From Planctomycetia bacterium (lineage in GTDB: Bacteria > Planctomycetota > Planctomycetia > Pirellulales > UBA1268), in assembly GCA_014192425.1 (NCBI GenBank), contig BJHK01000016.1, positions 1 to 64,000 on the forward strand: a stretch of DNA of 64,000 nt. Direction: 5' to 3'. This document shows, piece after piece, positions 23,695-52,092 of the stretch. The notes beneath the pieces were generated by a model that saw nothing but the letters and a program-made list of their open reading frames with translations, did no database searches and was not told the DNA's origin. A program made the position numbers and the translations under genes. Each line of letters starts with the position of its first letter. Within the stretch, counting starts at the first letter, position 1.

Positions 23695-24837
23695 ATGACT
23701 CTCGTGGCACGACCGCCAAGCGGGGAAACGGCGATCCAGCGGATCGGCGGAGTCTCCCCGTGGGCCGAGCAGGTCCGCCGGTCGATCGAACTGGTCGCCA
23801 CGCGCAATTCCAGCGTCCTCGTCATGGGGCCGAGCGGCACCGGCAAGGAACTGATCGCCAGGGCGATCCACGCCTGCAGCGGCCGGTCGTCCAAGCCCTT
23901 CATCCCGGTCGATTGCGCCGTCACCACCGGGACGCTGTTCGCGAGTCACATGTTCGGCCACGTCAAGGGCTCGTTCACCGGCGCGACCTCATCGACGCTC
24001 GGCTGCTTCCGGGCCGCCGACGGCGGCACGATCTTCCTCGACGAGATCGGGGAGATGGAATTGGAGTTGCAGGCCAAACTGCTGCGCGTCCTCCAGCAGC
24101 GGACCGTGGTGCCGGTCGGCAGCCACCAGGAGATTTCCGTCGATGTCCGGGTCCTGGCGGCGACGAATCGTGATCTCGGTCGGGAGGTCGCGGCGGGGCG
24201 ATTCCGCGAGGACCTGTTCTACCGGCTGAACGTCGTCGCCATCCAGACGCAGCCACTCCGGGATCGGCCGGAGGACATCCCCGTGCTGGCGGGCCGGTAT
24301 CTGGCCGAACTCGCCGCCCGGCATGGGATGCCGCTGTGCGGCCTGTCACCCGCGGCGATCGGCATCCTCCTGTCCTACCACTGGCCGGGCAACGTCCGCG
24401 AACTCGAAAACGTCCTCGAGCGGGCCGTGATGTTCTCGTCCGGCGACGAGATCGACCCCGACTCGCTAACGGGGCTGATGGGGGACGGGCTCGGCGCCCG
24501 GCCGGCGTTGTCCGCGCCGCTCGTGGAGGCGGCGCAGCGCGGCGTCATTTCGCCGACCGCGCTGCCGGGCGTCTACCGGGTCGAACCCAACGTCCAGTCG
24601 CCGCGGCCAGTCCAGGCCGATCCGGCGGGGCGGCCCGCGGCCGGCGACGCTCCCCAGACCTGGCCCACGCTCGCCGACGTGGAGCGGGTGCACCTGGAGA
24701 AGACGCTGGCCGCGACCATGCACAACAAGTCGCTGGCGGCGAAGATCCTGGGCATCGACCGGTCCGTGCTGCGCCGAAAACTGCAACGCTACGGACTCGA
24801 TGGCAGCCCCGCCCGCGGCGACGACGCCGAGGAGTGA
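23695..24837 (+). CDS. Sigma-54-dependent transcriptional activator without receiver domain
   Basis: A 380-aa bacterial enhancer-binding protein. The AAA+ domain begins almost at once: Walker A GPSGTGKE near residue 45, the sigma-54 contact loop as GSFTGA (an alanine-to-serine change from the usual GAFTGA), Walker B GGTIFLDEIGE, and the sensor regions AATNRDL and YHWPGNVRELEN. A Fis-type helix-turn-helix lies at the C-terminus (KTLAATMHNKSLAAKILGI, then VLRRKLQRYGL). With only about 20 residues before the AAA+ fold there is no sensory or receiver domain, so activity must be set by expression or by a partner protein. It is divergent from the Wsp-like operon and may control it; that is inference. 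Confidence 0.9.
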   Translation: MTLVARPPSGETAIQRIGGVSPWAEQVRRSIELVATRNSSVLVMGPSGTGKELIARAIHACSGRSSKPFIPVDCAVTTGTLFASHMFGHVKGSFTGATSSTLGCFRAADGGTIFLDEIGEMELELQAKLLRVLQQRTVVPVGSHQEISVDVRVLAATNRDLGREVAAGRFREDLFYRLNVVAIQTQPLRDRPEDIPVLAGRYLAELAARHGMPLCGLSPAAIGILLSYHWPGNVRELENVLERAVMFSSGDEIDPDSLTGLMGDGLGARPALSAPLVEAAQRGVISPTALPGVYRVEPNVQSPRPVQADPAGRPAAGDAPQTWPTLADVERVHLEKTLAATMHNKSLAAKILGIDRSVLRRKLQRYGLDGSPARGDDAEE

Positions 24838-46514: not shown

Positions 46515-47327
46515 TCACCAGCGCCAGCCGAGGCCGGCGTCGGAGAAGAAGGGTGCCGCATCGCCCCCCAGGCCCCAGCCGACGCGCAGGCCGATTTCCA
46601 TGTTTCGGCCAACAAGATAGTGCGTGCCGGGGCTGAAGAAGGGCTGGCTGCGCGGCGGGGTCAGCCCGGCCGAGTACGACCCGAACCACTCGGCGTGGAC
46701 CTCCCATCGTTCCGTGACCGGAATGCGGAGCACGGCCGAGGGCGTCCAGCGGCTGAACCAGCCGGCGTGCCCCTCGGCGTAGGCATACCGCAGGGCGGTG
46801 TCCAGCCGCCAGCCGCCGGGAAGTTCCCAGCCGGCGACGCCCGTGGCGACCGGCACCGTGCCGAACGAGTCGCCGAAGGCGGGCGTCGAGCCCTCCATGA
46901 TGAACGCCGACTCCGGCAGCCAGCCCGCCTGTCGCGAGGCCTGCAGCTTGAAGCCGTAGAGGATGCTCGTCTCGTACAACCGGCTGCCGTCGAGGGTTCC
47001 CTCTCCGACCTCGACGCTCGTCACGATCGTCCCCTGGGAGCCGATGCCATAGTTGACGCCGAACCGCCACTCCAGCCACTCCGTGCCCCCGACCCGCAGC
47101 AGCCACTCCGGATAGTTGTTCGTCGGCAGCCCGGCCGGGTTGTCGATGAAGACGTACGACGCCTCGTGCAGCAGGCTGCCGGGCTCGACGACGTGCGTCG
47201 AGGGCGTGAAGGCGTCCCGGTCGGTGCCGAGATCGGCGGCGGCCGCCTGCCCGGCCGCGAACGCCGCGAGCAGCACGCAGAAGGGGCGGGGGCCGGGGCG
47301 GCGGCTTTGACTTCGAGACGGTTCCAC
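46515..47327 (-). CDS. Outer-membrane beta-barrel protein (phenol-degradation MetA-like family)
   Basis: A 270-aa exported protein. A basic N-terminus and hydrophobic run (FCVLLAAFAAGQAAAA) form a signal peptide. The mature chain has alternating amphipathic beta strands such as EWLEWRFGVNYGIGSQGT and RWEVHAEWFGSYSAG, and ends in an aromatic residue (GLGWRW), as expected of an outer-membrane barrel. The opening DRDAFTPSTHVVEPGSLLHE resembles the PF13557-type transporter-like family of unknown substrate. A GTG at 47327 with CGGAG upstream is used; a GTG six codons earlier is possible. Confidence 0.68.
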   Translation of the reverse strand: MEPSRSQSRRPGPRPFCVLLAAFAAGQAAAADLGTDRDAFTPSTHVVEPGSLLHEASYVFIDNPAGLPTNNYPEWLLRVGGTEWLEWRFGVNYGIGSQGTIVTSVEVGEGTLDGSRLYETSILYGFKLQASRQAGWLPESAFIMEGSTPAFGDSFGTVPVATGVAGWELPGGWRLDTALRYAYAEGHAGWFSRWTPSAVLRIPVTERWEVHAEWFGSYSAGLTPPRSQPFFSPGTHYLVGRNMEIGLRVGWGLGGDAAPFFSDAGLGWRW

Positions 47328-47888
47328 GTCGATGCTCCGCGGCACTTCTGCCTTGGCCTTTGTCGGACCGGAGGGCCGCCGAGGAGCGTGTTTCCAGCTG
47401 GGAACGCACGGCCCTCCCAGGTTGCCGCGGCCCCCGGCGGGGGAAGGCCGGGGGCGAAGATGGTGTCGTCGGGAACGGGTCGGGGTGCGGGGAGGCGACG
47501 GCCGAGGGGGCATCACTCGGACGGTGAGCGGCTCACCGCGACGGTGAATCCGGCGAAAACATCGGAAAAAAGGGCCTGGTTGCGGGCTGGGAATGCCCGC
47601 GGGGCGTCGGTCGCCCCACCACTTCGGTGAATCGTGATCGGGTCGCCGGGAGGGTGACCTGAGCGGCATCGGCCCGCAAAGAAGCCCCGTTTTCCCGCTG
47701 TATTCAGCGATCTTTCGTGCCTGCCGCGAGTTTGGCACGCGGCGTGCTTTTCCTTCCTGTGTCGCCGGCGATGACGCGAAGCCCAAACGGCTCGCCAGTC
47801 GCCGGTGACGCGACCTCCGACCGGCGGTCGCGTCTTCGCAGATCGGCATCCCACGAGTCGCGGTTCGCCGCACAAGCAGAGGTGACAC
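47328..47888. other. 561-bp intergenic region between divergent genes
   Basis: No protein-coding gene is supported here. The first part (47400-47470) contains a GC-rich REP-like stretch whose translation would read RPRPSPAGGRG, a known signature of intergenic repeats misread as protein. An imperfect inverted region lies near 47510-47545. The sigma-54-type promoter at 47733-47748 reads toward the gene at 47889. Confidence 0.6.
47733..47748 (+). promoter_or_regulatory. Near-consensus sigma-54 (-24/-12) promoter
   Basis: The sequence TGGCACGCGGCGTGCT matches the sigma-54 consensus TGGCACG-N4-TTGCW at all but one position, with the invariant GG and GC exactly 10 nt apart, followed by a T-rich run. 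Transcription would start near 47760 and reach the receiver-like gene at 47889 and probably the PEP-CTERM gene behind it. Sigma-54 control is known for PEP-CTERM gene sets in some bacteria. Confidence 0.65.
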
Positions 47889-48389
47889 ATGATGGTCGTT
47901 GCAGTGGGTATCACGTCGGATGAGGTGCGGGCCCTGTCAGGTCAGATGTCGCCCCGCACGGCACGTGCGCCCGGTGTGCTGAAGTGCCTGGTTGTTTCCG
48001 GTGACGGCGGCCTGCGGAAGCGGCTTGACGCCGTCTCGGATCTCAGCGGCTGGAGCGCGTGCGAGGCACCGGCCGATGCCGCCGAGCTCTCGGCTGCGGT
48101 CGACAGCGACTATCAGCTGGTGGTCGTCGACGTGGCCAATCCGCTCGGTGAGCGGGTCAGCGACTCGATCGAGGCTGCCGAGGAATTCGCCTCCCGTCCG
48201 GGCACGCTGCTCGTGGTCTGCGGGGCCGAGGAGAGCGTCGACGAGGAGATCTGGGCCCGGCAACTCGGTGCATGGGTCTACCTGCCCGGTGCGACGGGCG
48301 GCGACGCCCTGGTCTCCCTGTTCGCCGAGGCCCGACGGGTCGCGGAACGGCGCGGGGTCAATCGCATGGGATCGATGGTCGGAGTCTGA
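47889..48389 (+). CDS. Degenerate CheY-like receiver protein
   Basis: A 166-aa soluble protein whose pattern of strands (CLVVSGDGGLRKRL, QLVVVDVANPLGE, TLLVVCGAEESVD, AWVYLPGATGGDAL) fits the CheY fold. An aspartate is kept at the phospho-site position (VVVDVAN), but the acidic pocket is reduced to SGDGG, the switch Thr/Ser after strand 4 is Cys, and the conserved Lys after strand 5 is replaced by LPG. It is therefore likely a pseudo-receiver that binds a partner. It lies 130 nt downstream of the predicted sigma-54 promoter and 120 nt ahead of the PEP-CTERM gene. The ATG-ATG start at 47889 is preceded by AGAGG. Confidence 0.6.
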   Translation: MMVVAVGITSDEVRALSGQMSPRTARAPGVLKCLVVSGDGGLRKRLDAVSDLSGWSACEAPADAAELSAAVDSDYQLVVVDVANPLGERVSDSIEAAEEFASRPGTLLVVCGAEESVDEEIWARQLGAWVYLPGATGGDALVSLFAEARRVAERRGVNRMGSMVGV

Positions 48390-48509
48390 GTTCGTGGTTT
48401 GAAGCGGCTGGTTCCGGTCGTGTGACCGGCAGTCGAAGTCGATGGTCGAACGGTTCTGGTAGTCGGTTTTTTCAACGTCCTGCGGGACATTTCACAAAGG
48501 AGCAGTCTC

Positions 48510-49730
48510 ATGAACGCAGTCGTAGGTTTTTATCGTGACGAGATGGACATCGAAGTTGATTCTGCAGTCAATCAGCGCCGGGACCGGATGACGCTCGCGC
48601 ACCGCAGCCGCCGTCCCGAGCACCGCCGGAATTCCGCTCCGGCCAGCGTGAACGGCATCCACCGCCGGCGCAACAAGCGCTGGACGTGGGGATCGGGCCG
48701 GGGTTCCAAGATGATGAACCTGCGTGCCATGGCTTCCGGCCTGGCCTTGGCCCTCGCCTCGATTTCCGGAGCGGCCCTCGGCAACGGCGTGACGATCGAC
48801 TACGCGACGGTTGGAAACCCGGGCAACGTGGCCCTCACCTCTGGCACGTTCGGATCGCGGGGATCGGTTGCCAACGCGTTCAACATCGCGAAGTACGAGA
48901 CGTCGAATGCCGATTACGTGAAGTTCCTCAACACCGTCGATCCCTCCGGCACCAATCCGAACTTGATCTACAATTCATCGATGACCTCCGACACGATCAA
49001 CGGTGGCATCCTCAATACCGGGACGGTCAACGGGTCGCGGTACTCGGTGCGGTCCGGGTTCGACCTGAAGCCGGTGACGTATGTCTCCTGGTTCTCCGCA
49101 GCTCGGTTCGCTAACTGGCTCAACAACGGTCAGACGTCGGGCACAGCGGGGACCGAGACGGGAGCCTACACGCTGAACGGGGTCACCTCCGGAACTCCGG
49201 TGGCCCGCAACTCCGGTGCCCAGGTCTACCTGCCGAACCTCGATGAGTTCACCAAGGCTGCCTACTTCGATCCGACGCTGAGCTCCGGTGCGGGCGGCTA
49301 CTACAGCTACGCCACCAAGTCCAATTCGGCTCCCACGGCTGCCACCTCCGGAGTCGGCACGAACCTGGCCAACTACGGTGGTTCCAACGGCCCGGCCCTG
49401 ACCACCGGCGTCGTGGACGGAACTGCCCTGCCGAACGCTGCCTCCTACTACGGCCTCTTCAACGCCTACGGAAACGTGATCGAGTACACCGACACGATCG
49501 TCGGGGCAGGGGTTGCCAACGGTGGTGCCAGCTGGAGGCTCAACACCGCGAACGCTGCCAACTGGAATTCGTCCGCCGTTCGGACGATCAATCTGGTGCC
49601 CTCCGACTCCTTTGGATTCCGCGTCGCCGCGGTGCCCGAGCCGGGTGCGATCGTCCTCGCCCTCGCCGGCCTCGGCGGAGCCTTCGGTGGCGAGTATGTC
49701 CGCCGCCGCCGCAAGGCAAAGGCCTGCTGA
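48510..49730 (+). CDS. PEP-CTERM-anchored SUMF1/formylglycine-generating-fold protein
   Basis: A 406-aa exported protein. The C-terminus is a PEP-CTERM sorting signal: VPEPGAIVLALAGLGGA, a hydrophobic helix and a basic RRRRKAKA tail, cut and anchored by an exosortase in known systems. The central 280 residues look like the SUMF1/FGE-sulfatase fold (NIAKYETSNADYVKFLNTVD, KPVTYVSWFSAARFANWLNN, AYGNVIEYTDT, DSFGFRVA); conserved catalytic residues were not verified. A basic leader of about 67 residues with NGIHRRRNKRWTW precedes the hydrophobic segment MASGLALALASISGAALG. The ATG at 48510 has a strong AAAGGAG site; an internal ATG at 48711 has none. No exosortase gene is in the window. Confidence 0.85.
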   Translation: MNAVVGFYRDEMDIEVDSAVNQRRDRMTLAHRSRRPEHRRNSAPASVNGIHRRRNKRWTWGSGRGSKMMNLRAMASGLALALASISGAALGNGVTIDYATVGNPGNVALTSGTFGSRGSVANAFNIAKYETSNADYVKFLNTVDPSGTNPNLIYNSSMTSDTINGGILNTGTVNGSRYSVRSGFDLKPVTYVSWFSAARFANWLNNGQTSGTAGTETGAYTLNGVTSGTPVARNSGAQVYLPNLDEFTKAAYFDPTLSSGAGGYYSYATKSNSAPTAATSGVGTNLANYGGSNGPALTTGVVDGTALPNAASYYGLFNAYGNVIEYTDTIVGAGVANGGASWRLNTANAANWNSSAVRTINLVPSDSFGFRVAAVPEPGAIVLALAGLGGAFGGEYVRRRRKAKAC

Positions 49731-49758
49731 GCCACGGGTTACACGCTCACGCCAGGAA

Positions 49759-49800
49759 ACGCCGTCCAGCGGGAAACCGCTGGACGGCGTCCTGCTTTTT
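49759..49800 (+). terminator. Intrinsic terminator after the PEP-CTERM gene
   Basis: A perfect 14-bp stem (49759-49772 with 49777-49790) around a GAAA tetraloop is followed by CCTGCTTTTT. It begins 29 nt after the stop codon of the PEP-CTERM gene. This is the clearest Rho-independent terminator in the window. Confidence 0.9.
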
Positions 49801-49824
49801 CTGGACAGCACCTGGGGCGGCGTC

Positions 49825-50808
49825 ATGAGAATCCTGCTGGCGAACGAGACCGGCGCCGTGCCGCACCTCGGCTGCCGCGCGGTTGCCGACGCCCATGCCC
49901 GGCTGCTCGGCCGGGCCGGGCACCGGGTGGTGGACCGGCTGTTCCTCAATGCGTTGCGCGGCCACGAGGAGGGAAGCGACAAGGACGTCGTGGCCGCGAT
50001 CGAGCGGGACGGTCCCCTGATGGCCCGCCTGGCCGACGTGGACGCCGTGGTCGTCAATGGCGAGGGCACGATCCACCACGGGGCGGGCCGCAGCTGGCTG
50101 GGGCTGCTCCAGGTGGCCCAGGGGCTGGGAAAGATCACGCTCCTCGTCAACGCCGTCCTCGAGGAGACGAACGGCTTCGAATCGATGTGGCCGCGGCTGA
50201 CCGACTGCACCGTCCGCGAGCCACGGTCGTGGGATGCCGCCCGGCGGCTGGGGGCACGGCCGCGGGTGGTGGCCGATTCCTACCTCGCCGCGGGTTTCGC
50301 GTCGACTGGCACGCCGCTCGCTGGAGACATCGTCACCGACTGGCATGGACAGTGCGCGGCGAGCGGCGCGATTCTCGAATGGTACCTGCGGCACGAAGGG
50401 GGAACGTTCCTGCCCTTGCGGACGCCGCAGGCCGCGGACGAGTGGGCCGGCCTGCCGCACCGGCTCGGGGCCGCCCGCGTCGTGATCACCGGCCGCCACC
50501 ACGGCGTCTATGCGGCAATCGTGGCCGGACGTCCGTTCGTGGCGTTGGCGTCGAACACCTACAAGATCGAGGCGACGCTGGAGGCCGTCGGGCTCGCGCG
50601 ACTCGTCGTCGCGACGCCGCAGGAAGCGGTCGCGCAGCGGGACTGGGCGCTGGAGAATCCCGGCGTGTTCCGGGCCCTCGCGGCCCGGCTGGCCGGTGGG
50701 CGGCCGTTGCCGACGTTCGCCGCACTCGGCAGCGGCGGCCCCGATCGGGAGGAGGAGGAGGTCGCCGCTCTCGCGGCGGACGTGGCCCGGCACATCGTCG
50801 CCGGCTGA
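49825..50808 (+). CDS. Polysaccharide pyruvyl transferase family protein
   Basis: A 327-aa cytoplasmic enzyme-like protein. VVNGEGTIHHGAGRSWLGLL near the first third, and VVITGRHHGVYAAIVAGRPF with FVALASNTYKIEATLE in the C-terminal third, match the CsaB/WcaK (PF04230) pattern, where members transfer pyruvate ketals to surface polysaccharide sugars. The start at 49825 gives MRILLANETGA directly. The gene lies beyond a strong terminator, so it needs its own promoter in the short gap or within the preceding gene. The exact acceptor is unknown. Confidence 0.75.
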   Translation: MRILLANETGAVPHLGCRAVADAHARLLGRAGHRVVDRLFLNALRGHEEGSDKDVVAAIERDGPLMARLADVDAVVVNGEGTIHHGAGRSWLGLLQVAQGLGKITLLVNAVLEETNGFESMWPRLTDCTVREPRSWDAARRLGARPRVVADSYLAAGFASTGTPLAGDIVTDWHGQCAASGAILEWYLRHEGGTFLPLRTPQAADEWAGLPHRLGAARVVITGRHHGVYAAIVAGRPFVALASNTYKIEATLEAVGLARLVVATPQEAVAQRDWALENPGVFRALAARLAGGRPLPTFAALGSGGPDREEEEVAALAADVARHIVAG

Positions 50809-50868: not shown

Positions 50869-52092
50869 ATGTTGATTGACAGAACGCGGTACGGCGACCG
50901 CGGTGCCGACGAGGTGCAGGCAATGGGTGAGACGGGCAGCACGCACGGGGAACAGCGATCCATCTCCGGCCTCGCCGGGGGGGATGCCGAGCCGATGGCC
51001 ATCGGCACTGCCGGTCAGCCGCCGCACGCCCCCGCCTCGACCGCGGAGATCGGGGCGGCTCTGGAGGGGCGGACGCTCGGGCACTACCAACTGCGGCAGT
51101 TCGTCGGCGGCGGCGGGATGGGGGCGGTGTTCCGGGCGCTCGATACCACGCTCGACAGGATCGTGGCAGTCAAGGTCCTGTCGCGGCAGCATTCGGCCGA
51201 CGCCGAGATGCTGCGCCGGTTCCGTAACGAGGCCCAGTCGGCGGCCCGGCTCGACCACGAGAACATCGGCCGCGTGCACGCGGTGGGCAGCGACGAAGGC
51301 TGGCACTACATCGTCTTCGAGTTCATCGAGGGGCGAAATCTGCGCGACCTCGTCCGTGAGCAGGGGCCGTTCGACGTCCCGCGGACGATCGGCATCGCCC
51401 TGGAGCTCGCCGACGCACTCGAGCACGCGGCCGACCGCGACGTGGTGCATCGCGACATCAAGCCCTCCAACATCGTGATCACCCCGGCCGGCAGGCCGCG
51501 GATCGTCGACATGGGGCTGGCCCGGCTGCCCCCCGCCGCCGGCGTCAACGACCTGACGGTGAGCGGGATGACCCTCGGCACCTTCGACTACATCTCCCCG
51601 GAACAGGCCCGCGACCCGCGGGCGGCCGACACCCGCAGCGACCTGTACTCGCTCGGCTGCACGCTGTTCTTCGTGCTCGTGGGGCGGCCGCCGTTCGCCG
51701 ACGGCACGCTGGTGCAGAAGCTGCTCCAGCATCAGCAGGAACCCCCGCCGGCGGTCGAGGCGCTGCGGCCCGACGTGCCGGCGCCGCTGGCGGCGATCAT
51801 CGCCCGGCTGATGGCCAAGGACCCGAACGATCGGTACCAGCGGCCGGCGGCCCTCGCGGCCGACCTCGTGTCGTGCGCGGAGGCCTGCGGCATCGACGTC
51901 GCCCTTCCCAGGCCCGTGGTCGTCGCGGCACCGGTCGCCGACAGTCGCCGCCGCGCCAGCCTGCCGTGGCTGGTTCCGCTGATCGGTTTCGCCCTGCTCG
52001 TCGCGACGCTCTGGATCCGGGCGATCGCGGACCGGCGGGACACGGACAGGGAAGCCGCCCCCGACCCGCCGGCCGCGGCACCGAACGATTGA
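50869..52092 (+). CDS. Hanks-type Ser/Thr protein kinase with C-terminal membrane anchor
   Basis: A 407-aa kinase. The glycine loop FVGGGGMGAVFRA is near residue 77, the ATP lysine is in IVAVKVL, the catalytic loop is VVHRDIKPSNIVI and the activation segment starts with DMG instead of DFG. APE is replaced by SPEQA as usual for the PknB group. One membrane segment (WLVPLIGFALLVATLWI, about 364-380) is followed by only about 25 residues, so there is no extracytoplasmic sensor domain. The first ATG is used, but the 65-residue leader is low complexity and a start at 50923 is possible. Confidence 0.88.
   Translation: MLIDRTRYGDRGADEVQAMGETGSTHGEQRSISGLAGGDAEPMAIGTAGQPPHAPASTAEIGAALEGRTLGHYQLRQFVGGGGMGAVFRALDTTLDRIVAVKVLSRQHSADAEMLRRFRNEAQSAARLDHENIGRVHAVGSDEGWHYIVFEFIEGRNLRDLVREQGPFDVPRTIGIALELADALEHAADRDVVHRDIKPSNIVITPAGRPRIVDMGLARLPPAAGVNDLTVSGMTLGTFDYISPEQARDPRAADTRSDLYSLGCTLFFVLVGRPPFADGTLVQKLLQHQQEPPPAVEALRPDVPAPLAAIIARLMAKDPNDRYQRPAALAADLVSCAEACGIDVALPRPVVVAAPVADSRRRASLPWLVPLIGFALLVATLWIRAIADRRDTDREAAPDPPAAAPND

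Follow-up and report, generated by a model that had tools for sequence, protein, structure and literature searches.

In Proteobacteria, PEP-CTERM genes are controlled by PrsK/PrsR and a sigma-54 motif that was reported there only, and the control of PEP-CTERM genes outside the Proteobacteria was left open (Haft et al., 2006; PMC1569441). RpoN-dependent expression of a PEP-CTERM gene (pepA) was shown in Aquincola (PMC9850573), a precedent that confirms an earlier, sequence-only reading of this DNA in its statement that sigma-54 control of PEP-CTERM genes is reported for floc formers. A 2025 survey of sigma-54 regulons mentions neither PEP-CTERM nor exosortase in its main text (PMC12316311). Among other sigma-54 systems, NtrC has the published site TGCACC-N5-GGTGCA (PMC4987338), and in the pairs PspF/PspA and HrpS/HrpV the activator is controlled in trans (PMC3791423, PMC4145663).

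The window (i.e., the whole 64,000-nucleotide stretch of planctomycete DNA analysed) contained at 47513-49790 a region that is read here, with considerable confidence, as an enhancer-dependent sigma-54 operon run through upstream palindromes by an activator encoded at contig C6 of the same genome (G000) (Table 1). This reading was built by comparison and draws on the conservation of promoter and palindromes, their fixed spacing, an activator that co-occurs with the operon and lies beside it in relatives, and operon order. Genome-wide statements on the window's own genome come from searches by pattern, family and model.

Table 1. Predicted features of the operon region (window positions).
Feature	Positions	Strand	Remarks
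Enhancer-like palindrome UAS1 TCACTCGGACGGTGA	47513..47527	+	1 mismatch to TCACC-N5-GGTGA; 220 bp upstream of -24 TGG; position conserved in orthologues
Enhancer-like palindrome UAS2 TCACCGCGACGGTGA	47533..47547	+	exact TCACC-N5-GGTGA; 200 bp upstream of -24 TGG
Enhancer-like palindrome UAS3 CCACCACTTCGGTGA	47616..47630	+	1 mismatch; 117 bp upstream of -24 TGG; position conserved in orthologues
Possible fourth, weaker palindrome TCGCCGGGAGGGTGA	47643..47657	+	1 mismatch to TCACC-N5-GGTGA; none at this position in aligned orthologues
Sigma-54 -24/-12 promoter TTGGCACGCGGCGTGCT	47732..47748	+	conserved in orthologous loci; predicted transcription start near 47759
Ribosome-binding site AGAGGTG	47878..47884	+	aligned position AGGAGGTG conserved in orthologues
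Stand-alone pseudo-receiver, 166 aa	47889..48389	+	receiver fold plus long last helix, residues 31-166
PEP-CTERM protein with SUMF1/FGE-like domain, 406 aa	48510..49730	+	PF03781 E 1e-12; PF07589 E 2.5e-5
N-terminal basic domain of PEP-CTERM protein	48510..48689	+	free-standing ~60-aa protein in relatives (..NGIHRRRNKRWTW)
PEP-CTERM sorting signal	49629..49712	+	PF07589 29.9 bits, cut-off 20.7
Intrinsic terminator	49759..49790	+	14-pair stem, then T run

The sequence-only reading had proposed a sigma-54 promoter driving a degenerate receiver gene and a PEP-CTERM gene of SUMF1 fold, closed by a terminator. Each of these parts was recovered: the promoter match, TGGCACGCGGCGTGCT at 47733-47748, has GG at -24 and GC at -12 with 10 bp between them and one mismatch against TGGCACG-N4-TTGCW; the first gene encodes a receiver-fold protein with an altered active site; the second matched the Pfam FGE-sulfatase and PEP-CTERM families; and a stem followed by a T run ends the unit. 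That reading caught the promoter and overlooked three things: the array of enhancers, the activator candidate and the small basic protein fused to the PEP-CTERM protein.

The promoter match lies in an intergenic gap of about 560 bp between an opposite-strand gene and the pseudo-receiver gene. As a pattern the motif was no more frequent in the genome than its control: the one-mismatch form gave 34 matches vs 43 for the reversed pattern, and the exact form, TGGCACG-N5-TGC, gave 16 vs 39. The motif alone is thus not special, and the site stands above chance because it is conserved in orthologous loci. In an alignment of the upstream regions of 15 loci, TTGGCACG-N5-TGCA recurred, slightly varied, at 73-216 bp ahead of the start codon. 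A second, named set of 22 close orthologous pseudo-receiver loci, overlapping the first, carried the motif exactly, no more than 300 bp upstream, in 20 cases, vs 1 of 4,209 random stretches from the same loci. RpoN is encoded in the genome (PF04552, E 4.4e-60). The window promoter is very probably real and part of a conserved planctomycete control circuit.

The palindromes upstream, TCACC-N5-GGTGA, look like enhancers. At least two were present in 19 of 22 close loci (control 2.6%) and in 13 of 23 distant loci (control 6.3%), and one close orthologue (L137) had no clear palindromes. Their distances to the -24 TGG stayed near 220, 200 and 117 bp in most close loci, with a few shifted by about 10 or 20 bp, close to one or two turns of the helix. 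Families elsewhere in the Pirellulales have the promoter at a greater distance from the receiver gene but keep palindrome distances near 206/187/115 or 195/176/105 bp. Symmetric 15-bp palindromes are typical of dimeric repressor sites too, and several distant loci (e.g., L171, L172, L173, L175 and L180) have palindromes with no sigma-54 site that passed the filter, as would be expected if an ordinary repressor or activator used the palindromes as its operator at a different promoter, with the -24/-12 match being secondary. We consider this quite unlikely: the region yielded no sigma-70-type promoter, every letter of the sigma-54 site is conserved and its distance from the palindromes hardly varies, a sigma-54 activator co-occurs with the operon and adjoins it in relatives, and sites 105-220 bp upstream fit enhancers better than operators.

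A model of the UAS1-UAS2 pair, run against the window's own genome, scored the window best (E 2.2e-6) and a locus on contig C7 second (E 5.9e-6), with the next listed locus in the noise (E 0.09). Both of these loci were among the training sequences, so the informative part of this search is that no third locus scored. Confident tandem pairs were confined to two loci in this genome, both of which lie near PEP-CTERM genes and sigma-54 sites. A genome scan for the motif before other PEP-CTERM genes, which the sequence-only reading had proposed as a check, found a sigma-54 site before just 2 of 11. Sigma-54 control of the pseudo-receiver and PEP-CTERM unit was upheld, while sigma-54 control as a general rule for PEP-CTERM genes in this genome was rejected. 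Two other sites in the genome were recorded: an exact sigma-54 motif before a receiver-like gene with a hydrophobic C-terminus, where TCACC-N5-GGTGA palindromes were absent (C32:7510-8137, L081), and an array of six 15-bp units in tandem, TGGCCCGCACCTTGC, every unit differing from the sigma-54 consensus at one position (C12:103301-103391, minus strand).

The genome encodes 12 strong enhancer-binding proteins. Choosing among them by co-occurrence within the family alone was dropped, most candidates being universal there. At the level of the order, an orthologue (63-77% identity) of the sigma-54 enhancer-binding protein at C6:76870-77988 (372 aa) was found in all 12 of the operon-bearing genomes vs 1 of 12 without the operon (Fisher P 1e-5, uncorrected for kinship, with order-level genomes drawn from different families); the best match in the remaining operon-free genomes reached at most 48% identity. 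Outside the family, identity was about 67% or less. The C6 type was also present in three genomes in which no operon was found (G024, G008 and G012). Directly upstream of the operon and in the same direction, an activator with the same helix-turn-helix was encoded at six named loci and in G037 and G042; these activator-adjacent loci, at least eight and all outside the window, include the cultured Lacipirellula limnantheis. The C6 protein has no recognisable N-terminal regulatory or sensory domain. Its helix-turn-helix, GHKxxAAKLLGVHANTxTRLL, has a recognition helix that we take to resemble that of NtrC, and the NtrC site and the window palindromes have half-site and spacing in common.

The window itself encodes another sigma-54 activator without a sensory domain (23695-24837, plus strand), 24 kb from the operon. 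With twelve strong candidates in the genome, and with a family distribution for this protein similar to that of the C6 protein, a different enhancer-binding protein such as this one could be the activator. This is unlikely, since the C6 type alone was found beside the operon in other families; the 23695-24837 protein stays a candidate because the order-wide co-occurrence test covered the C6 type only. The C6 protein is the best activator candidate and is predicted to bind the palindromes.

Relatives of the pseudo-receiver were found in 33 of 60 related genomes. The AlphaFold2 model (pLDDT 83) has the (beta-alpha)5 receiver fold, with a match to NtrC1 (4l4u) at Z 17.1 and rmsd 2.2 over 136 residues; the best structural matches were NtrC1 and NtrX receivers with their linker, and other receivers with a long last helix, e.g., PleD, were nearly as close. 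Residues 1-30 were mostly disordered in the model, and the start, MMVVAVGITSEEV, was conserved. The phospho-accepting Asp (D81) was kept in 39 of 41 sequences, while the rest of the receiver active site was changed: the acidic pair was SG or SW, the Thr/Ser was mostly Cys, and the Lys was Pro or Gly. The stretch E(L/I)WARQLG was invariant in the 41-sequence alignment, partly a selection effect because this peptide was the scan pattern; in an alignment made without that scan, its E, R and G were still invariant. The window protein had no Pfam match at E 0.01. Three of the 41 sequences matched PF20161 (VpsR) at E 0.01 or near it, the window protein not among them, and one distant relative scored 27.2 bits vs the cut-off of 23.7. 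A receiver paralogue at C2:241626 was set aside as an ordinary response regulator. The pseudo-receiver is the conserved member of the unit, and its linkage is not incidental.

The PEP-CTERM protein ends in a PEP motif, a membrane segment and a basic tail, and PF07589 scored over its cut-off. The FGE-sulfatase domain lacks the active-site cysteines of formylglycine-generating enzyme; the sole cysteine of the protein is its last residue. The structure model was unusable (pLDDT 35). In the window's genus the N-terminus carries a fused basic protein, ahead of the signal peptide; this basic protein is free-standing in Lacipirellula and at other loci, follows the receiver as a protein of its own in G017, G032 and G035, and had no Pfam or NCBIfam match. 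In each of two regions, G043:C1:20692-22745 and G051:C76:106122-119378, its gene was present in several copies. An Rfam search of 47300-50000 gave no match. Directly past the terminator lies a gene matching polysaccharide pyruvyl transferase (PF04230; 49826-50808, plus strand); a Ser/Thr kinase gene comes next, at 50869.

Lacipirellula limnantheis and G042 share one order: activator, palindromes, sigma-54 site, basic protein of about 59 aa, pseudo-receiver, second basic protein of about 60 aa, and PEP-CTERM protein. The arrangement in the cultured strain, Lacipirellula limnantheis I41, looks ancestral. A second locus type, represented by the C7 locus and several relatives, had a sigma-54 site, a short open frame, palindromes and a PEP-CTERM gene, so that the palindromes were downstream of the first promoter; the short frame resembled the first residues of the pseudo-receiver (e.g., MMVVAHGITSEEVVWTRR, then a stop). 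The C7 locus itself (C7:47416-48801, L071) had two sigma-54 sites around its palindromes and a 24-aa frame, MVTVAVALTSELVLPSPDQRPSQR, like the pseudo-receiver start. Conserved frames of 17-18 aa (e.g., MKVAVGITSEEVRPTGK) followed the sigma-54 site at L118, L119, L121, L123, L124 and L127 and matched the first pseudo-receiver residues; they may be a leader peptide or a remnant. At L128 (G026:C129:1-4000) two sigma-54 sites flank about eight TCACC-N5-GGTGA-like palindromes that together span about 210 bp.

We infer that the C6 activator, its own sensory domain absent, would bind the palindromes and, by DNA looping, contact RpoN-polymerase waiting at the promoter. Transcription would then run from the predicted start through the pseudo-receiver gene and, assuming co-transcription across a 120-bp gap, the PEP-CTERM gene to the terminator. 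The PEP-CTERM protein would be exported and then processed by the exosortase encoded at C2:44882 (PF09721, E 9.8e-56; TIGR02602, 121.7 bits vs a cut-off of 105.55). Promoter, enhancer, activator and targets would together give a complete and testable candidate circuit for the Planctomycetota. More tentatively, in a reading that is less likely than not, the activator may have lost its regulatory domain and be controlled in trans by the degenerate receiver-plus-linker module that the operon encodes, as PspF is by PspA. If true, this split circuit would form a feedback loop on surface-protein expression across the Pirellulales, and might exemplify a sigma-54 activator with its receiver-like partner working as a protein of its own.

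The planctomycete circuit differs from the Proteobacterial PrsK/PrsR one; its novelty, judged on the open-licence literature, is provisional. The two share a -24/-12 promoter, upstream activator sites before PEP-CTERM genes and an exosortase in the genome, and by this common logic (PMC1569441) the PrsK/PrsR regulon could simply extend to this planctomycete. Such an extension is very improbable. Of the six (among 12) strong enhancer-binding proteins scored on TIGR02915 (PrsR), none reached its cut-off of 502.6 bits, the best scoring 367 bits. The published motif 1, reported in Proteobacteria only (Haft et al., PMC1569441), ends in TTTACA about 63 bp from the sigma-54 site; no conserved TTTACA element was present in the aligned upstream regions, which instead had TCACC-N5-GGTGA at about 105-220 bp. 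In addition, the candidate activator of the planctomycete operon lacks a receiver domain, the operon includes small basic proteins along with a pseudo-receiver that stands alone, and the site precedes 2 of 11 PEP-CTERM genes.

The circuit resembles NtrC in its GGTG/CACC half-site, 5-bp spacer and presumably similar helix-turn-helix, and differs in the outer bases, in the candidate activator without a receiver domain and in a target that is a surface-protein operon. One pseudo-receiver relative exceeds the Pfam cut-off for the VpsR regulatory domain (PF20161), whereas the window protein has no such match and lacks a fused ATPase. As in PspF/PspA and HrpS/HrpV, the candidate activator has no N-terminal regulatory domain and could be controlled by a protein encoded at its target; unlike in those systems, the putative partner is a receiver-fold protein.
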